12,517 bases of DNA from Candidatus Altimarinota bacterium (GTDB lineage: Bacteria > Patescibacteriota > Gracilibacteria > RBG-16-42-10), in assembly GCA_017984655.1 (NCBI GenBank), contig JAGNZB010000033.1, positions 1 to 12,517 on the forward strand. The letters are read 5' to 3'. Shown piece by piece: positions 902-9,524 of this stretch; position 1 is the stretch's first letter, and each line of letters starts with the position of its first letter. The notes under the pieces were generated by a model that was not told the origin of the DNA, made no database searches, and was given only the letters and a program-made list of their open reading frames with translations. Position numbers and translations under genes: made by a program.

Positions 902-1759
902 TTAGCTCACCATCGCCTGAGCAAGTAACCATATTTTTTCAGTCTTCGACGTCCGTGCCCGACCGGCATAGACATTGTAGTGCTGATCTTCGATTTTCTT
1001 CAAAATAGCGGCATACAAGCGACTGGCCACCTTGACTGCCAACTGACCGTGAGGGTGTAGCATCATAATCCCCTTCTCAGCTTCCAGGTACAGCTCACGT
1101 GCCCTAGCTATTTGCCACTTGAGCATATGAATGAATGCATCATTGCAAACTCTGGAGTGAATAGTGGTGGGGTCGATCTGAAATAACTGGAGCTCGCTTT
1201 GGGGTATGTAGATGCGCTGGCGCTGCTGCCAATCTTCATCAATGTCGCGGAGAAAGTTGGTGAGTTGCATGGCATAGCCCAACTTTTCAGCATAGCGCAA
1301 GGCTTCAGCGTTGCTGAAACCAATAATATAGGTCAGCATCAAGCCCACTACAGCAGCTGACCCATACATGTACTGCTCAAGCTCTTTATAGGTGGCATAG
1401 GTGGATTTCTCCGTATCCTGAAGCATTGCCTGAAAGAAAGATTCACTATAGTGATAAGGAATATGGTACTGATGAAAAATCACTTGTGCTGCATACAATA
1501 CTGGGTGCTCACTAGTTTGTTGTTGGTAGGCATCTTGCCATTGTTTTTGGTGGGCCAATAATTGTGATCGTGCCACACTGGTATCATGGCAATTGTCGAC
1601 GATCTCGTCAGGGAGGCGAAAAAAAGCATAGAGGACATGCACGGCGTCACGGATGTCTGGGGGAAATAACTTGGTGGCAAAATAGTAACTAGTGCCATGT
1701 TGTTTGTTGATCAGTTTTGCTTGAGCAACTCCTTCGAGATAGCGGGGATCAGTACTCAT
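902..1759 (-). CDS. crtB: Phytoene synthase (squalene/phytoene synthase family)
   Basis: 285 aa, typical for bacterial CrtB. It condenses two geranylgeranyl diphosphates via prephytoene diphosphate to 15-cis-phytoene, the committed carotenoid step. The first Asp-rich motif is DEIVD (residues 51-55) after YAFFRLP. The second is in QLTNFLRDIDED (165-176), with D172 and D176 placed to bind Mg2+-diphosphate, followed by the RIYIP segment (182-186) typical of the family. The N-terminal SYYFATKLFP motif (24-33) is also family-typical. The start is the ATG 1757-1759, separated by one nucleotide from the crtE stop (TAA at 1763-1761), so the two genes are probably translationally coupled. Squalene or diapophytoene synthase are the alternatives (C15 substrates). 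The adjacent prenyl synthase with GGPP-type features and the downstream crtI favour phytoene. Confidence 0.92.
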   Translation of the reverse strand: MSTDPRYLEGVAQAKLINKQHGTSYYFATKLFPPDIRDAVHVLYAFFRLPDEIVDNCHDTSVARSQLLAHQKQWQDAYQQQTSEHPVLYAAQVIFHQYHIPYHYSESFFQAMLQDTEKSTYATYKELEQYMYGSAAVVGLMLTYIIGFSNAEALRYAEKLGYAMQLTNFLRDIDEDWQQRQRIYIPQSELQLFQIDPTTIHSRVCNDAFIHMLKWQIARARELYLEAEKGIMMLHPHGQLAVKVASRLYAAILKKIEDQHYNVYAGRARTSKTEKIWLLAQAMVS

Positions 1760-1760
1760 G

Positions 1761-2801
1761 TTAGGCTTGGCGATTACGAATATAAGCTATCATGGAGAGC
1801 AAAGCTGACTGACTTGGCCTATTCCAAGATCTGACCAACCCCTCAGCCTGGTCGAAATAGTGAGTCATTTGTTGCTGGGCATAATTGACAGCCCCGCTAT
1901 TGTTGAACATCAGCCTCAACTCTTGTTGCTGAGCTTGAGTAATTGGTTTTCCCCAATACTGGTGCAACAAGTACTGCTCAGGGGGAGTGCCATGATCCAA
2001 AATGTATTGTGTATAATAGGTATGTTGATGAGCAGCAAGATCCGAAAAAGTACTTTTGCCTAGAGCTGACTCTTCATTGAGAAGATCAAATAGATCATCT
2101 TGGATCTGAAAGGCTAGGCCCAATGCAGTGCCGATATTTCTGCACGCTTCGTAGTCAGATTGTGCCCCATCGGCAAGGGCGACGCCTAGTTGCAATGGGT
2201 AAATGAAGCTATAGCTAGCAGTTTTGAGCAGCATCTTTTGTTGTAACTCTGCTTCACTGACGGTACTGCGGGTCGTAAGATCGACATCAATCATCTGACC
2301 AATAACCAGCTCGTCAATCATTTTCATTACTATTGGCAGCACCTGTCCTGTGGTCGCCAAGGGGACAAGTACTTGATATACCCAGCCAAACAGCATATCG
2401 CCAGCTAAGACTGCTTGGCTCGCAGCCACATGGTCTAGGTCACCATGACGATTATCTGTTTGTAGTCTTTGTTTGGCAAAGACATGCGTGGTGGTAATCC
2501 CCCGCCTTTCATGGCCATGATCCATCCAATCATCATGAATGAGACTGAAGGTGTGTAGCAATTCCAGTGCAATACCCAACTGGATAATTGCATGATGATC
2601 GTGGCCACCCAGAGCCTGGTAAACTAGGTAGCAGAGATAAGGGCGAACACGTTTGCCTCTACTAGTGATCAGTTTGCAGCTATGAATTACTTGATCACGA
2701 ACAAAAGGAACTGTCGTCAGCTCAATAATGTCGGCCATTTTGTGCTCGCACCAAGACTGAAGCTCTTGATTGAATTGCTTCTGAAATTCGACGATCTCCA
2801 T
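1761..2801 (-). CDS. crtE: Polyprenyl (geranylgeranyl) diphosphate synthase
   Basis: Trans-isoprenyl diphosphate synthase that elongates allylic diphosphates with IPP. From the ATG at 2799-2801 it is 346 aa. An in-frame GTG at 2829-2831 would add 10 residues. The ATG is preferred because it leaves about 48 residues before GKRVRP, as in E. coli IspA. Family marks: GKRVRP, a first Asp-rich motif DDWMD in LIHDDWMDHGHERRG, GQMIDVD, KTA and a second Asp-rich motif DDLFD in FQIQDDLFD. The first motif has no two-residue insertion (DDxxD), and a Phe sits five residues before it. In published chain-length rules that combination fits a type I (archaeal-style) GGPP synthase. C20 product is thus inferred and suits the crtB one nucleotide downstream. 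Purely FPP or longer-chain output cannot be excluded. The 57-nt gap upstream shows no convincing promoter. Confidence 0.88.
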   Translation of the reverse strand: MEIVEFQKQFNQELQSWCEHKMADIIELTTVPFVRDQVIHSCKLITSRGKRVRPYLCYLVYQALGGHDHHAIIQLGIALELLHTFSLIHDDWMDHGHERRGITTTHVFAKQRLQTDNRHGDLDHVAASQAVLAGDMLFGWVYQVLVPLATTGQVLPIVMKMIDELVIGQMIDVDLTTRSTVSEAELQQKMLLKTASYSFIYPLQLGVALADGAQSDYEACRNIGTALGLAFQIQDDLFDLLNEESALGKSTFSDLAAHQHTYYTQYILDHGTPPEQYLLHQYWGKPITQAQQQELRLMFNNSGAVNYAQQQMTHYFDQAEGLVRSWNRPSQSALLSMIAYIRNRQA

Positions 2802-2858
2802 AGATAAAAACCACAAGTTTTTCTTGCACACTTTACTGACTACATTTCAAAGAAGCAA

Positions 2859-4864: not shown

Positions 4865-6184
4865 TTATTTTGTAGCAACGACATAAGCACTGGTATCATA
4901 GCGGAAATAACGATAGGTTGACCATTCACTAGCAAGGCCATTGCTTGCCAATGCTCTTACTCTGACTCGGAACTGGTTATCCCCAGCAAGTGGCTGAGTC
5001 TGTAGTGAAGTCTCTGTGACGGTGGTGCTACTAGCGCCAAGCCAAAGTGTGCTGACACTGACACAAGTATCACATGCCAACTCCATCTCGTATTTGTAAG
5101 CTCCAGTCACTGGTGTCCAGCTGATATTGGTGCGACGAGGATAGGTAGCCAGGGTTTGGTCAGGGTTTGGAGCGAGGATGGTTGGTGCTGCAAGAGTTTG
5201 GACATTTGGAGCTGTAGGAGCTACTGCTGGTGTGACATAGCGGAAGTAACGGTATGCTGACCAGTCACTGTACTGACTACTAGCCACTGCTCTGACACGG
5301 ACACGGAACTGATTGTCACCAGCCAAAGGTGGAGTAACGAATGAGGTCTGTGTAGTCTTATAGTTGTTTGGTGAAAGCCACATCGTGGTAGTGCTGACAC
5401 AAACATCACAAGCTAATTCTATTTCATAATAATCAGCGCCAGACACTGCTGTCCAACTCAGCTTTGCCTCACGTGGATAATTTCGGAGGATCTCGTCACT
5501 GGTAGGAGTAATGATTTGTGGGGCTGTCAGTGCAAATGGACTTTCATTGTTGGCCTTTTTGATTTGACGAGCCAAGAGTTCAGCCATTTCACCACGAGCA
5601 AACTTGTTGTCATCACTGACATTGGGGACTGTAAAGAGCTGTTTGCTAGCCTTGTCTTCATAGGCCTTGTACCAAGGATTGGTCACTTGCTCAGGACGAA
5701 GCCCGAGAGTGTTCATGCTGATTTTCAATGCTTCTTGATAACTGACAGGCGCATTTGGTTTGAATGAGCCATCGGGGAAGCCATTGATGATTTGGTTGCC
5801 TTGAGCATAACAAATGTACTTGGCATACCACATGTTTTTGTCGACATCGGAGAAACACTGAGTATCAGTCTGGGCCTCGATATTGGTATTGTTGGCAAGG
5901 AATACCATCTTGAGTAATTCAGCGCGAGTCACGGTATTGTCTGGACGAAAGCTCTGATCACCAAAGCCCTGAACAATGTTTTTATTTTTGACGTAGGTAA
6001 TTGCATCAGCATAAGGGGTGACAGCACTTACATCTTTGAATGTCACTGCTGTACTGACTTGAACATTGGCATTCAGGTCGGCAGCATTGGTACTTGCTTG
6101 CGGAATCAGTAATAAACTAACACTGAGGAGCAAGCAACTAGTGGTAAACAGGTTGTCTGAGAGACGAACTCGAGTCGATGACAT
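4865..6184 (-). CDS. S-layer homology protein with two Fn3-like repeats
   Basis: 439 aa exported surface protein. Residues 1-35 form a signal peptide (hydrophobic core 16-28, likely cleavage after NAA near 35). Three SLH domains follow: about 49-93 (FKDV...YVKNKNIVQGFGD.SFRPDNTVTRAELLKM), 111-157 (FSDV...NQIINGFPDGSFKP) and a weaker one at 169-206. SLH domains usually bind pyruvylated secondary cell-wall polymers and hold the protein to the cell surface. The C-terminal half has two homologous Fn3-like beta-sandwich repeats (about 222-316 and 333-429), both with ACDxCVS, a WL segment, PLAGDNQFRVRVRA and a closing YRYFRY. Cysteines come in pairs (110/125, 259/262, 371/374), suggesting disulfides outside the cell. 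Single gene; a possible extended -10 (TGC-TAGGGT, minus strand 6217-6209) lies 24 nt before the ATG. Its target is unknown: structural S-layer, adhesin or receptor are all possible. Confidence 0.9.
   Translation of the reverse strand: MSSTRVRLSDNLFTTSCLLLSVSLLLIPQASTNAADLNANVQVSTAVTFKDVSAVTPYADAITYVKNKNIVQGFGDQSFRPDNTVTRAELLKMVFLANNTNIEAQTDTQCFSDVDKNMWYAKYICYAQGNQIINGFPDGSFKPNAPVSYQEALKISMNTLGLRPEQVTNPWYKAYEDKASKQLFTVPNVSDDNKFARGEMAELLARQIKKANNESPFALTAPQIITPTSDEILRNYPREAKLSWTAVSGADYYEIELACDVCVSTTTMWLSPNNYKTTQTSFVTPPLAGDNQFRVRVRAVASSQYSDWSAYRYFRYVTPAVAPTAPNVQTLAAPTILAPNPDQTLATYPRRTNISWTPVTGAYKYEMELACDTCVSVSTLWLGASSTTVTETSLQTQPLAGDNQFRVRVRALASNGLASEWSTYRYFRYDTSAYVVATK
4898..5521 (-). repeat. 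Tandem Fn3-like repeat pair inside the SLH gene
   Basis: Two roughly 95-residue coding units (about 5521-5237 and 5188-4898 on the minus strand) are clearly duplicated. Both contain a YPR...SWT.V.GA.YE.ELACD.CVS core and an identical AGDNQFRVRVRA block, joined by a short Pro/Ala-rich linker (about residues 317-332). Confidence 0.8.
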
Positions 6185-6757: not shown

Positions 6758-7312
6758 ATGGAAAAAGATACACAGCTACCTATCCTCAAGTTGGCTGATA
6801 ATATCCCAGCTACCGTACAGTTCGATGGTGTATTGGGAAAAGAATTTCATAATGAAAAATATGATTCTATTTCCTATCTCTACATTCTGTATGATGTCAC
6901 CAACAACAATAAGAAAATGATTTGGTTTGCTACCGAAAAACAACATCAAGCTGTATTAGCACAGAAGATCAGTACCCAAAAAGTCTATACATTATTGAAA
7001 CAGAAATCTGAAGGAGACAAGTACAGTACTCTAAAGGTTTTGGAGCTCCCCAATACCAACAAAAATACATTTGTTGGTAATCAATCAGCGACTAGTGAAT
7101 TGGCTGAGGCAATTGAGAATTATGATCACGCGACATCGAGTAATGAGAAAGTACTACCAGAAGCTGCAGCGTGGGCAATCAAAACTGCGGTGATGTCCTA
7201 TGATATATTTGATCGATCACATGTATGGCCAAAGGATACCAGTATCGAGCAGCGTCTCCATTCACTTGCCAAAAAATTTCTAGCGATGCAAAAAAAGTTT
7301 ACTGATGATTAG
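6758..7312 (+). CDS. Hypothetical protein with uncertain N-terminus
   Basis: 184 aa from the ATG at 6758 (MEKDTQLPILKLADNIPATV...). The frame is open back to an ATG at 6692 (206 aa), but those extra 22 residues look non-coding. I do not recognise the family. The first two thirds are beta-rich (DSISYLYILYDVTNN..KMIWFATEKQHQAV). The C-terminal third is helical and Lys-rich (AWAIKTAVMSYDIFD ... LAKKFLAMQKKF). It is polar throughout, with no signal peptide in this frame. Just upstream, TAGGCA (6705-6710), 17 nt, then GATACT (6728-6733) could be a promoter 24 nt before ATG 6758, which favours that start. In the +1-related frame directly upstream lies a strongly hydrophobic helix (from TTG 6720), which would give a membrane-anchored protein if one base were missing in the AAAAA run at 6762-6766. 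It lies upstream of the ECF sigma gene, with no visible functional link. Confidence 0.65.
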   Translation: MEKDTQLPILKLADNIPATVQFDGVLGKEFHNEKYDSISYLYILYDVTNNNKKMIWFATEKQHQAVLAQKISTQKVYTLLKQKSEGDKYSTLKVLELPNTNKNTFVGNQSATSELAEAIENYDHATSSNEKVLPEAAAWAIKTAVMSYDIFDRSHVWPKDTSIEQRLHSLAKKFLAMQKKFTDD

Positions 7313-7323
7313 TACTTGTTTAT

Positions 7324-7362
7324 CAGCAAGTGAAAGAAACTGAAAAGTAAATTGTAGTATTA
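7324..7362 (+). promoter_or_regulatory. Putative ECF-sigma autoregulatory promoter
   Basis: CAGCAAGTGAAAGAAA (7324-7339), 12 nt, then TTGTAGTATTA (7352-7362). The first element and TTGTAGTA-N-TA recur with the same 12-nt spacing at 8681. Both copies lie 76 nt before the chosen start codon of the gene downstream. The likely -35 core is GTGAAAG and the -10 core GTAGTA, about 17 nt apart, a usual ECF spacing. The surrounding sequences and leaders differ, so the conservation is local to the elements. Confidence 0.72.
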
Positions 7363-7399
7363 CAGTAGCAGTCCCGCAAATCCCCTCCTTACTATTGTC

Positions 7400-7972
7400 A
7401 TGGTTCCTACCCCTGGATTAGAAATAACGGATGAAAAACTGGCTTCTCTAGTCCAGAAAGTTGACAAAGAACAGTTCGGTGTTTTGGTGGATCGCTATCA
7501 AAAAAAGCTCCTTCGCTATGGCCGAAAGTTCTTGGCGGAAACTGGCAATATCGAGGATATCCTGCAGGAAATTTTCCTCCGCGCGTATCAGAATATTCAA
7601 AGCTTTGATACCAAACTAAAGTTCTCTTCTTGGATCTATCGCATCGCGCACAATTTGTTTATCAATGCGCTCAAGAAGCAGTCTCACCAGATTGTCTACT
7701 CTTTCAACTTTGACACCCTGATGCCTCATCCCATCTATGAAGATGCCGCTGTCAGTGAGCGGGAACAGAAGGAGCTACGGAAGATGCTTGATAGTAGTAT
7801 GAATAGCTTGCCAGCCCACTACCGTGAGGTGATTGTTCTTTATTACTTCGAAGAGCTGGATTACCGGGAAATTGCTGATATTCTTCACATCCCGATTGGT
7901 ACAGTCGGTATTCGTCTCCGTCGAGCCAAAGCCCAACTCAAAAAATCTTATCTAAAACTGCATGCAAGATAA
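7400..7972 (+). CDS. ECF-type RNA polymerase sigma factor
   Basis: 190 aa with the two-domain ECF layout. Sigma-2 spans about 25-92: FGVLVDRYQKKLLRYGRKFL, then the -10-recognition and core-binding part NIEDILQEIFLRAYQNIQSFD, then KFSSWIYRIAHNLFINALKK. After a linker, sigma-4 spans about 126-183 (LPAHYREVIVLYYFEELDYREIADIL with the helix-turn-helix IPIGTVGIRLRRAKAQLKK), which reads the -35. No sigma-1 or sigma-3 is present. Start ATG 7400 lies 41 nt after the end of the putative -10 element. The stop overlaps the next gene by 11 nt, indicating translational coupling to a membrane partner, the usual ECF/anti-sigma arrangement. The shared upstream element suggests it drives its own transcription and that of the secreted protein at 8757. 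The ECF subgroup cannot be named from sequence alone. Confidence 0.93.
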   Translation: MVPTPGLEITDEKLASLVQKVDKEQFGVLVDRYQKKLLRYGRKFLAETGNIEDILQEIFLRAYQNIQSFDTKLKFSSWIYRIAHNLFINALKKQSHQIVYSFNFDTLMPHPIYEDAAVSEREQKELRKMLDSSMNSLPAHYREVIVLYYFEELDYREIADILHIPIGTVGIRLRRAKAQLKKSYLKLHAR

Positions 7973-8657
7973 ATCTTCAGCCAACACACTCAAGGATACC
8001 ATCCTAGAGAAAATCGAAAGTGACCAAGTCAAGATGAGACCAAAGCTCTTCTATGTCCTCAAGGTTGGTCTCGTAGCTGCTGTGGGTGTGGCGATCTTGG
8101 TGGTTGTTTCTTTGCTGACCAGTTTTATCTTATTTAGTATCTGGGTTAGTGATCGAGCGTTCTTATTAGGATTCGGTGCTCGGGGTATCAACACATTCTT
8201 GATGCTTTTTCCTTGGCGGTTATTCATCCTAGCTTTCGTATTGGTGGTCATCTTTACTGTTTTGATTCGTAGCTTCCGTTTTGGTTATCGCAGTCCGATT
8301 CTCTACTTCTCCATCATTGCTTTGGCACTCAGTATCGGATCGGGATTCTTCATTGCTAGGACGCCACTGCATCAAGGTCTCTCGGAACGTGATCGAGTGC
8401 ACCAGCTGCCGGTTTTGCCTGGAATCTATCATCATGTCAGTCGCCCTGCTCCCAGTAATGATGTCTTTCGTGGTCTTGTTAGAACGATTATGGAGCAAAG
8501 TATTCGGGTGGAGGATGAAGAACAGCAAATAGTCACGGTGGTTCTGCCAGCCAACTGGTCCAACCGAATCGTGATCAAGGTAGGTGATCAGCTCTTTATT
8601 GCTGGTGATTGGCATGGGGCCACGTTTCGAGCCTATGGCTTGAAGAAGATAAAATAA
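7962..8657 (+). CDS. Three-TM membrane protein, candidate anti-sigma factor
   Basis: 231 aa, start ATG 7962 inside the sigma gene's last codons (11-nt overlap), so coupled to it. Layout: a short charged cytoplasmic helix (1-30, NTLKDTILEKIESDQVKMRP), TM1 about 36-62, TM2 about 84-103, TM3 about 112-132, then a C-terminal domain of about 100 residues that is beta-rich near the end (QQIVTVVLPANWSNRIVIKVGDQLFIAGDWHGA). With an N-in start and three TMs the C-terminal domain should be outside. There is no zinc-type HxxxCxxC anti-sigma motif, and the cytoplasmic part is very short. The anti-sigma role is inferred from gene order and coupling. The KMRP-LFYVLK lead into TM1 reminds me of a membrane-protein family found beside ECF genes in CPR genomes, but I cannot verify this. 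It could instead be a sensor or an unrelated membrane protein. Confidence 0.75.
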   Translation: MQDKSSANTLKDTILEKIESDQVKMRPKLFYVLKVGLVAAVGVAILVVVSLLTSFILFSIWVSDRAFLLGFGARGINTFLMLFPWRLFILAFVLVVIFTVLIRSFRFGYRSPILYFSIIALALSIGSGFFIARTPLHQGLSERDRVHQLPVLPGIYHHVSRPAPSNDVFRGLVRTIMEQSIRVEDEEQQIVTVVLPANWSNRIVIKVGDQLFIAGDWHGATFRAYGLKKIK

Positions 8658-8680
8658 ACCGATCCGACACCTAGTCCAGA

Positions 8681-8719
8681 CAGCAAGTGAAAGAAAATCA
8701 CTGTTCTGTTGTAGTAGTA
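8681..8719 (+). promoter_or_regulatory. Second copy of the ECF-type promoter element
   Basis: CAGCAAGTGAAAGAAA (8681-8696), 12 nt, then TTGTAGTAGTA (8709-8719). It is identical in the first element and in 10 of 11 bases of the second to the copy before the sigma gene. It lies 76 nt before ATG 8757. A start at ATG 8721 would sit directly on the predicted -10, which argues for 8757. Confidence 0.72.
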
Positions 8720-8756
8720 GATGTCGCGACAGCGATTACTATTTATTTACATTTCT

Positions 8757-9524
8757 ATGAACAAGAAACTATTGGCTACGGGTGGATTGGTATCATCTTT
8801 ATTGTTGCTAAGCACGACTGCTGCAGCCTATGCAGCTACTAGTACTGCACCTAGCAGACAGGCACCAATGAATAATAGCCGCATAAGACCAATGCGCAAC
8901 GATGGCGCTTTTGTGACTAAGATGGCTACTAAACTCGGACTGGATGCTGCTACTGTCAAAGCTGAACTTGATAGTGGGAAGACCATCAGAGATATCTTTG
9001 CTGACAACAATATTACAGAGGAGAAAATGAAAACCGTTTTTGGCGGTCGAGGACATGGGGGTCGTGGTCACGGAATGATGCATGATAGTAGTAAATTAAC
9101 TGAAATCGCTACCAAGCTTGGTCTGGATGCTGCGGCTGTCAAAGAACAACTAGCTAGTGGCAAATCATTCAAAGATATTCTGACTGAGAACAACATCACG
9201 CCCGAACAAATCAAGACTGTCTTGGGATCTCAGTTTGAAGCAGGCAAGGGCCCACATGGCCAACATGGACCAAGACAAATGCCAGGTGAAGTACTCGCTC
9301 TCCAAGCCCAAGTCCTTGGCATCACAGTCGAACAGCTGCAAGCTGAGTTTGCAGCGGGTCAGAGAATCACCGACGTACTCAAGAGTCACAACATGACAAT
9401 CGAGGCATTTGATGCGCAAATCAAATCTGCAGCACAAGCAGCACTCACAGCAGGAAACCTCACTGACGAACAAATTACTCATTACCAGAGAATTGTAGGC
9501 AGAGGTTCTCGTATCAGTAAGTAG
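8757..9524 (+). CDS. Secreted three-repeat protein with His/Gly-rich linkers
   Basis: 255 aa from ATG 8757; an upstream ATG at 8721 would add 12 residues but overlaps the predicted promoter. Residues 1-27 form a textbook signal peptide (MNKK, hydrophobic core, AYA|AT). The mature protein has three helical repeats of about 46 residues (51-96, 112-157, 178-223). Repeats 1 and 2 share ATKLGLDAA-VK--L-SGK, D-I and NNIT; repeat 3 is diverged but keeps VLGI, V-Q-L and AAGQRITDVL. They are joined by linkers rich in Gly, His, Met and Arg (GGRGHGGRGHGMMHD; GKGPHGQHGPRQMPG) that could bind metal or act as flexible spacers. There are no cysteines. The repeats resemble short helical hairpins of DUF2680/YckD-like exported proteins, a weak impression. 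The shared ECF element upstream suggests it is an output of the sigma factor, perhaps an envelope-stress protein. It ends before a clear terminator. Confidence 0.85.
   Translation: MNKKLLATGGLVSSLLLLSTTAAAYAATSTAPSRQAPMNNSRIRPMRNDGAFVTKMATKLGLDAATVKAELDSGKTIRDIFADNNITEEKMKTVFGGRGHGGRGHGMMHDSSKLTEIATKLGLDAAAVKEQLASGKSFKDILTENNITPEQIKTVLGSQFEAGKGPHGQHGPRQMPGEVLALQAQVLGITVEQLQAEFAAGQRITDVLKSHNMTIEAFDAQIKSAAQAALTAGNLTDEQITHYQRIVGRGSRISK
8907..9425 (+). repeat. Three internal repeats of the secreted protein gene
   Basis: Coding repeats at about 8907-9044, 9090-9227 and 9288-9425. The first two are also similar at DNA level (for example CTGGATGCTGC followed by GCTGTCAAAG-like sequence). The third is diverged, which points to an older duplication followed by a more recent one. 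Confidence 0.75.

Follow-up and report, generated by a model that had tools for sequence, protein, structure and literature searches.

A shared two-part element before a sigma factor operon and a secreted-protein gene in Candidatus Altimarinota: predicted promoters of a putatively autoregulated ECF sigma factor

The stretch of Candidatus Altimarinota DNA analysed here (12,517 nucleotides of contig JAGNZB010000033.1, hereafter the window) carries the same two-part sequence element before two genes, one for an extracytoplasmic function (ECF) sigma factor and one for a putative secreted protein, and the question is what reads this element. The initial annotation had proposed an ECF -35/-10 pair, with an autoregulated sigma factor and the secreted protein as its target, and the comparative evidence compiled below supports this proposal: both elements are very probably promoters read by the ECF sigma factor encoded after the first one. 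The module follows the order promoter, ECF sigma factor, overlapping membrane protein (ORF2, for open reading frame 2, a probable anti-sigma factor), promoter, secreted protein (ORF3); the earlier account of the locus had described the promoters and left out ORF2, which lies between them. Sequence comparison marks the element as a variant of a promoter type already known, conserved across gracilibacterial and Paceibacteria-type genomes.

The pattern CAGCAAGTGAAAGAAA-N12-TTGTAGTA-N-TA occurs exactly where it had been annotated, at 7324-7362 and 8681-8719, these being its 2 matches in the window, with 0 in 200 dinucleotide shuffles. The equal distance to the start codons holds as well, the first base of each element lying 76 nucleotides (nt) from the starts at 7400 and 8757. 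Both sites fall into gaps between open reading frames, site 1 past a frame ending at 7312 and site 2 past ORF2, which ends at 8657, and the core form of both is TGAAAGAAA-N13-TGTA. The -35 box of promoter 1 (7331..7339, plus strand) is an exact match to TGAAAGAAA, the same box that motif discovery returned upstream of sigma relatives; its -10 box TGTAGTA (7353..7359, plus strand) follows 13 nt past the -35 box, equivalent to N16 when counted from TGAAAG in the manner of the Bacillus subtilis SigW promoter. Promoter 2 comprises an equally exact -35 box (8688..8696, plus strand) and TGTAGTA at 8710..8716 (plus strand). No further site of at least 9 bits was present on either strand of the window with a weight matrix from 57 upstream regions, and no sigma-70-type -35/-10 promoter was found at either place. 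An imperfect palindrome (8712-8741, 84% over 19 nt) overlaps the -10 box of the secreted-protein gene and its leader; at the -10 box of the sigma promoter, no such palindrome is among those listed.

The draft genome that contains the window (1,045,275 bases in 92 contigs, 93.45% complete, contamination 3.18%) was searched for the element, as had been proposed beforehand. Allowing up to three mismatches, GTGAAAGAAA-N12-TTGTAGTA was found at 6 places, the window pair with 0 mismatches and the other 4 with exactly 3, compared to 4 places for the reversed-pattern control. The core TGAAAGAAA-N13-YGTA with at most one mismatch gave 7 matches (control 11), perfect only at the window pair. A looser pattern yielded 3 matches versus 1 in the control and added G000:C55:4017-4045, located by eye within the 3' end of a dnaK-like gene and followed by a terminator-like hairpin and the gene of an HtrA-like protease. 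This place was not retained as a third promoter: it is probably a chance match, even though a protease of the envelope would make a suitable target. The window's own genome shows just two clear promoters; two clear sites and one doubtful fit the small regulon predicted earlier.

Conservation beyond this genome carries most of the argument. Sigma relatives were drawn from 21 of 23 loci of a first set (L028 and L029, weak and partial matches, were omitted) and from further genomes of the class; L134, L136 and L137 were dropped from the 40 regions fetched, as they gave no sigma match. Motif discovery allowed two boxes at spacings of 12-15 nt, with five shuffled sets as the control. On 57 of 59 upstream regions, the window included and two dropped as too short or masked, it returned TGAAAGAAA-N13/14-CGTATTA with a log-likelihood of 265 (59-66 in the shuffled sets). 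Because 10 of the 58 loci (including L132, which is also a sigma match) had come from a motif scan, the key tests were redone without them, and discovery was repeated on the 48 other sigma upstream regions with the window excluded. The same two boxes emerged, with a log-likelihood of 187.5 versus 54-62 in the shuffled sets; 32 of the 48 upstream regions scored at least 10 bits, and the two sites of the window, which had no part in training the model, reached 17.5 bits.

The second promoter position is conserved along similar lines. With a matrix built from sigma upstream regions only, a site of at least 10 bits was detected in the 260 nt around the ORF2 end, the place of promoter 2, in 34 of 46 loci that had been selected independently of the motif, compared to 36 of 1322 control windows taken within these loci (p = 3e-38); once the motif-chosen loci were added, the figures were 36 of 54 and 35 of 1570. 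In 7 of the 54 loci (L011, L012, L015, L021, L023, L109 and L110) the best site begins 3 nt before the ORF2 end, such that ORF2 takes its stop codon there from the -35 box (TGA). Across the class, TGAAAGAAA-N13/14-CGTA is present in 64 of 145 genomes, with 115 sites in total versus 36 for the reversed pattern, the TGTA sites of the window not being counted. Proximity and presence or absence were assessed with the 28 best sigma relatives besides the window's own (E up to 3e-25). Among genomes G001-G059, 28 of 57 sites are located between -2.5 and +3 kb from one of these 28 genes, 26 of the 28 on the strand of the sigma gene. In the 26 genomes that have a strong sigma relative there are 47 sites (control 7), and in the 33 that lack one there are 10 (control 7); across these 59 related genomes, sites exceed background solely where a strong sigma relative occurs.

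The sigma tree places the window's sigma factor within the Paceibacteria-type sigmas (100/100), apart from those of its own class; the same clade includes one record labelled Chloroflexi (L025). As the genome itself looks gracilibacterial, this grouping suggests lateral transfer of the sigma gene. The one other genome of the family, compared for a close relative with the same gene order, gave no DNA match. The suggestion has to be qualified by the 3.18% contamination of the draft, yet an independent gracilibacterial record has a close ORF3 (P0002). P0005 is an ORF2 relative at 83%. Several genomes of the same class show TGA inside aligned frames, as expected for the gracilibacterial class; together with the ORF3 record, this is the basis on which the genome is taken as gracilibacterial. 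The first -10 base differs between the two sigma clades: among loci scoring at least 10 bits, motif-chosen ones omitted, 8 of 10 of the Paceibacteria type have T and 19 of 22 of the gracilibacterial ones have C (p = 6e-5, T versus C), the latter count replacing an earlier 25 of 29 that had included loci chosen by CGTA. The T of the window agrees with the Paceibacteria-type clade of its sigma factor, and because of this difference the two clades provide a natural experiment on promoter specificity.

Several observations weigh against the proposed reading. Autoregulation via the motif is not universal, since 16 of the 48 sigma upstream regions score below 10 bits; wrong start codons may be the cause in some of them. 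No site is found past ORF2 in 12 of the 46 loci. In some loci, L129, L130 and L131 for example, the secreted-protein gene with its own site is located upstream of the sigma gene instead. The sixth -35 base departs from the clade, the window having G like 18 of 22 gracilibacterial loci, with T in 6 of 10 Paceibacteria-type loci. ORF2 gave no match in Pfam or NCBIfam, and no known anti-sigma family was among its PDB profile matches; with a draft 93% complete more sites could be missing. Furthermore, AAC at -35 and CGT at -10 are given as a hallmark of ECF promoters in PMC8103513, and the window has AAAGAAA and TGTA; because this hallmark was drawn from a small set of studied ECF sigma factors, missing it lowers the likeness and not the membership. 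AAAC does occur at -35 in the relatives L007, L019 and L026, and CGTA at -10 in most gracilibacterial relatives.

The sigma gene (7400..7972, plus strand) encodes 190 residues with Sigma70 regions 2 and 4 (PF04542, 1.3e-18; PF08281, 9.8e-17). Region 2 spans residues 29-95 and region 4 residues 129-180, and the gap of 33 residues places the protein among the ECF (group 4) sigma factors, which possess regions 2 and 4 alone with a linker below 50 residues, as given in PMC8103513. Further marks of that group are positive autoregulation by way of an own promoter motif and a co-encoded cognate anti-sigma factor, for which the motif before the sigma gene and the adjacent membrane-protein gene are the candidates here. 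ORF3 (8757..9524, plus strand), the predicted target, encodes a secreted protein of 255 residues, with an N-terminus that resembles a signal peptide by eye. It consists of two close and one diverged helical repeat with a linker rich in Gly, His and Met, reflected in a 128-nt direct repeat at 70%; the AlphaFold2 model shows short-helix repeats at a mean confidence (pLDDT) of just 63.

ORF2 (7962..8657, plus strand; 231 residues) overlaps the sigma gene by 11 nt. Its structural model features an N-terminal helix (7-19), long helices at 28-63, 85-104 and 112-132, and a C-terminal domain with an oligonucleotide/oligosaccharide-binding (OB) fold at about 162-231. The promoters might be real and ORF2 merely a co-regulated envelope protein, with the sigma factor controlled otherwise; this is unlikely, though it deserves to be weighed with care, given the lack of a known anti-sigma domain and the brevity of the segment ahead of the first hydrophobic stretch (about 25 residues, median over 55 ORF2s). 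On the other hand, a gene for a membrane protein follows the sigma gene in 55 of 58 loci, frequently with an overlap, the N-terminal segment before the membrane part is conserved in ORF2 relatives that are otherwise poorly alike, and short wrap-around anti-sigma factors such as CnrY have been described. ORF2 is most likely the cognate anti-sigma factor.

That the element is an operator, by which some other transcription factor controls both genes, is improbable. Two boxes at a fixed distance would fit an operator too, and the identity of the two copies extends past the core into CAGCAAG, the same 7 bases directly before both cores (7324-7330 and 8681-8687), outside the family-wide motif. The boxes are, however, unlike each other and not palindromic, the discovered spacing consists almost wholly of two adjacent lengths out of the four allowed, and 26 of the 28 sites near sigma genes share their strand. 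Moreover, no other promoter was seen at either place, the sites track the sigma family across genomes, and the first -10 base varies with the sigma clade. Whether extra bases are generally common to both promoters of a locus was considered and dropped: over 26 loci, window included, promoter pairs within a locus shared on average 4.2 of 12 upstream positions versus 3.5 between loci (standard deviation 1.8), no clear effect, so that CAGCAAG looks peculiar to the window.

Even less probable is that the promoters belong to another sigma factor of the genome. Two further Sigma70_r2 proteins are indeed encoded, on contigs C49 and C86, yet no site of at least 9 bits was found in the 3.2 kb around either gene (loci L060 and L062), the sites cluster at relatives of the window's sigma factor, and the sigma-70-type search at both places had come up empty. 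The gene on C86 (G000:C86:18060-18575) is a second ECF-like sigma gene at 26% identity; two TAA were counted in the aligned stretch, yet a 193-codon frame is open. Finally, a functionless leftover of a recent local duplication, to which the 7 extra identical bases not seen family-wide might point, is hardly credible, as the same boxes stand at the same two places in distant genomes and the spacers of the two copies agree at 3 of 12 positions (own count), which confines the likeness to the two boxes despite an overall identity of 74% between the 39-nt copies.

The ECF sigma promoter assignment also allows targets to be predicted elsewhere. Around the sigma loci, 39 frames were listed behind motif matches, the sigma genes excluded; 32 of them are short with a start that looks signal-like or anchor-like by eye. 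These represent several sequence types that are not related to one another, frequently with a high content of Gly, Met and His. HlyD-like adaptors (L010, L012, L017 and L106), an ATP-binding cassette (ABC) ATPase (L025), an ApbE-like protein (L007) and a doubtful frame (L102) make up the remaining 7; the L007 match, inside the gene's own start, is probably due to chance. Pfam confirmed HlyD domains in both adaptors tested, L010 and L012. The Paceibacteria-type locus L013 repeats the order of the window: sigma, ORF2, motif and a partial ORF3 homologue (31% over 114 residues). From the 115 class-wide sites, 40 more were hand-picked for inspection, mostly away from sigma genes. No open frame of at least 90 codons runs over 21 of these, and the adjacent genes include HlyD-like adaptors (L156, confirmed by Pfam; L161 and L173, by likeness), an ABC ATPase (L154), one more ECF sigma factor (L176), and lipoprotein-like and Met-rich secreted proteins. 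The remaining 19 lie within open frames, many resembling chance matches in housekeeping genes; L163, L168 and L182 among them precede a secreted protein or HlyD-like adaptors. As a set, the targets resemble an envelope-stress regulon, and control by envelope stress is also suggested by the occurrence of the motif, outside the window, in front of HlyD-type efflux adaptors and further secreted proteins. A search of the window's own genome for HlyD adaptors returned none, an empty result that shows little.

Past ORF2 in L007, L008, L011 and L013, a protein with a flavin mononucleotide (FMN)-binding domain (L011, PF04205, 1.2e-7) and, by eye, ApbE-like (L007) and NqrB/RnfD-like genes were noticed, so a flavin electron-transfer target set beside the Paceibacteria-type sigma operon is possible. 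A protein with a cytochrome b5-like domain (PF00173, 2.8e-18) is encoded at L012:6329-6775, behind a motif site at the ORF2 end. Targets are enriched in Met and His (36 targets versus 324 other frames; p = 2e-4 for M+H, 6e-10 for G+M+H; the comparison set was not confined to secreted proteins), CusF/SilF is among the OB-fold matches, and several database relatives show a CxC motif by eye. Metal sensing was not adopted, in view of that comparison set, the generic nature of OB folds and the presence of CxC in the C-terminal half of just 3 of 55 ORF2s.

Read directly from sequence are both sites with their geometry, the fact that they are unique in the draft genome, and their conservation and co-occurrence with the sigma family; from these we infer sigma binding, the inhibition by ORF2 and its membrane orientation, the envelope origin of the signal and the role of the secreted protein, and the following circuit can be proposed. 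The -35 box TGAAAGAAA and the -10 box TGTAGTA, 16 nt apart in the SigW-style count, would drive both the sigma-ORF2 operon and the gene of the secreted repeat protein. The short N-terminal helix of ORF2 would hold the sigma factor at the membrane, and its OB-fold domain at the C-terminus would lie outside the membrane and detect a signal from the envelope. Once released, the sigma factor would boost its own operon, the anti-sigma factor included, and turn on the secreted protein.

A bolder extension, which we consider speculative and rather unlikely, is an envelope-homeostasis circuit common to Patescibacteria with a new kind of anti-sigma factor: a one-helix sigma clamp, a membrane anchor and an outer OB fold that reads the envelope, possibly via the secreted products of the sigma factor itself. 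If true, binding of these products by the OB fold would close a feedback loop outside the cell. Weak hints in this direction are DUF5666 matches of a secreted target (L010, E 0.001) and of an ORF2 relative (P0007, E 0.004), both below the Pfam cut-off, and the likeness, by eye, of the targets of L009 and L014. The outcome is a concrete, testable set of sigma factor, promoter and target, conserved in two groups of Patescibacteria and connected to secreted proteins and to efflux; its motif allows target genes to be predicted from the sequence alone, and its candidate anti-sigma family has no named domain. With the same arrangement found in many distant relatives, the module looks like a broadly conserved circuit through which these minimal bacteria would react to problems at their cell surface.

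Elsewhere in the window, two adjoining genes at 902-2831 (minus strand) resemble, by eye, phytoene/squalene synthase and polyprenyl diphosphate synthase, and the gene at 4865-6184 (minus strand) codes for a protein that matches S-layer homology domains over two stretches (PF00395, 1.7e-28).

How does the module compare to known systems? Gene regulation in Patescibacteria, also known as the Candidate Phyla Radiation (CPR), is little explored because few of these organisms can be grown. A literature survey on ECF sigma and anti-sigma factors in CPR, Patescibacteria and Gracilibacteria turned up no paper on such a system, as judged by titles and the opening lines of abstracts; subscription papers were outside its scope, and absence from print is not established. 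E. coli RpoE is an autoregulated sigma factor encoded with a membrane regulator, RseA; the window's sigma factor is also of the ECF type, with the solved sigma-E as its second-best sequence match, while promoter sequence and regulator architecture are unlike those of the window. With CnrY of the CnrH/CnrY pair from Cupriavidus metallidurans, a short wrap-around class II anti-sigma factor for which two helices are described, ORF2, if it is an anti-sigma factor, would share a very short cytoplasmic part before the membrane helix. In contrast to CnrY, ORF2 is modelled with a single helix at the N-terminus, and it has several membrane helices together with an OB fold; CnrY was also absent from the PDB matches (8 at E 1) that the ORF2 profile gave.

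The closest counterpart is found in Bacillus subtilis, where the sigW gene is followed by that of the membrane protein RsiW, the same order as in the window. SigW is the nearest characterized sigma factor to the window's, as both the closest solved structure (5wuq, 1.5e-28) and the top NCBIfam model point to it; the model score of 131.9 bits is under its cut-off of 209 (NF007223 / TIGR02948; other score 121.3, cut-off 243.1). ORF2 departs from RsiW with several membrane helices and an OB fold, and its translation contains no cysteine for the Hx3Cx2C motif that, according to PMC7406223, marks the anti-sigma domain of class I zinc anti-sigma factors of the RsiW/RsrA type. The promoter consensus of SigW, given as TGAAACN16,17CGTA in PMC2375139, agrees with the family in box order, in a spacing of 16 or 17, in TGAAA at -35 and in xGTA at -10. 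The window's TGAAAG-N16-TGTA matches it in 8 of 10 bases and in spacing, differing in a -35 box TGAAAGAAA without AAC and in TGTA at -10. The recognition motif is thus not foreign to known ECF sigma factors: its geometry is that of SigW promoters, and its conservation reaches well past this genome. The surprise lies in the breadth of this conservation, in the unnamed anti-sigma candidate and in the tight two-promoter layout.

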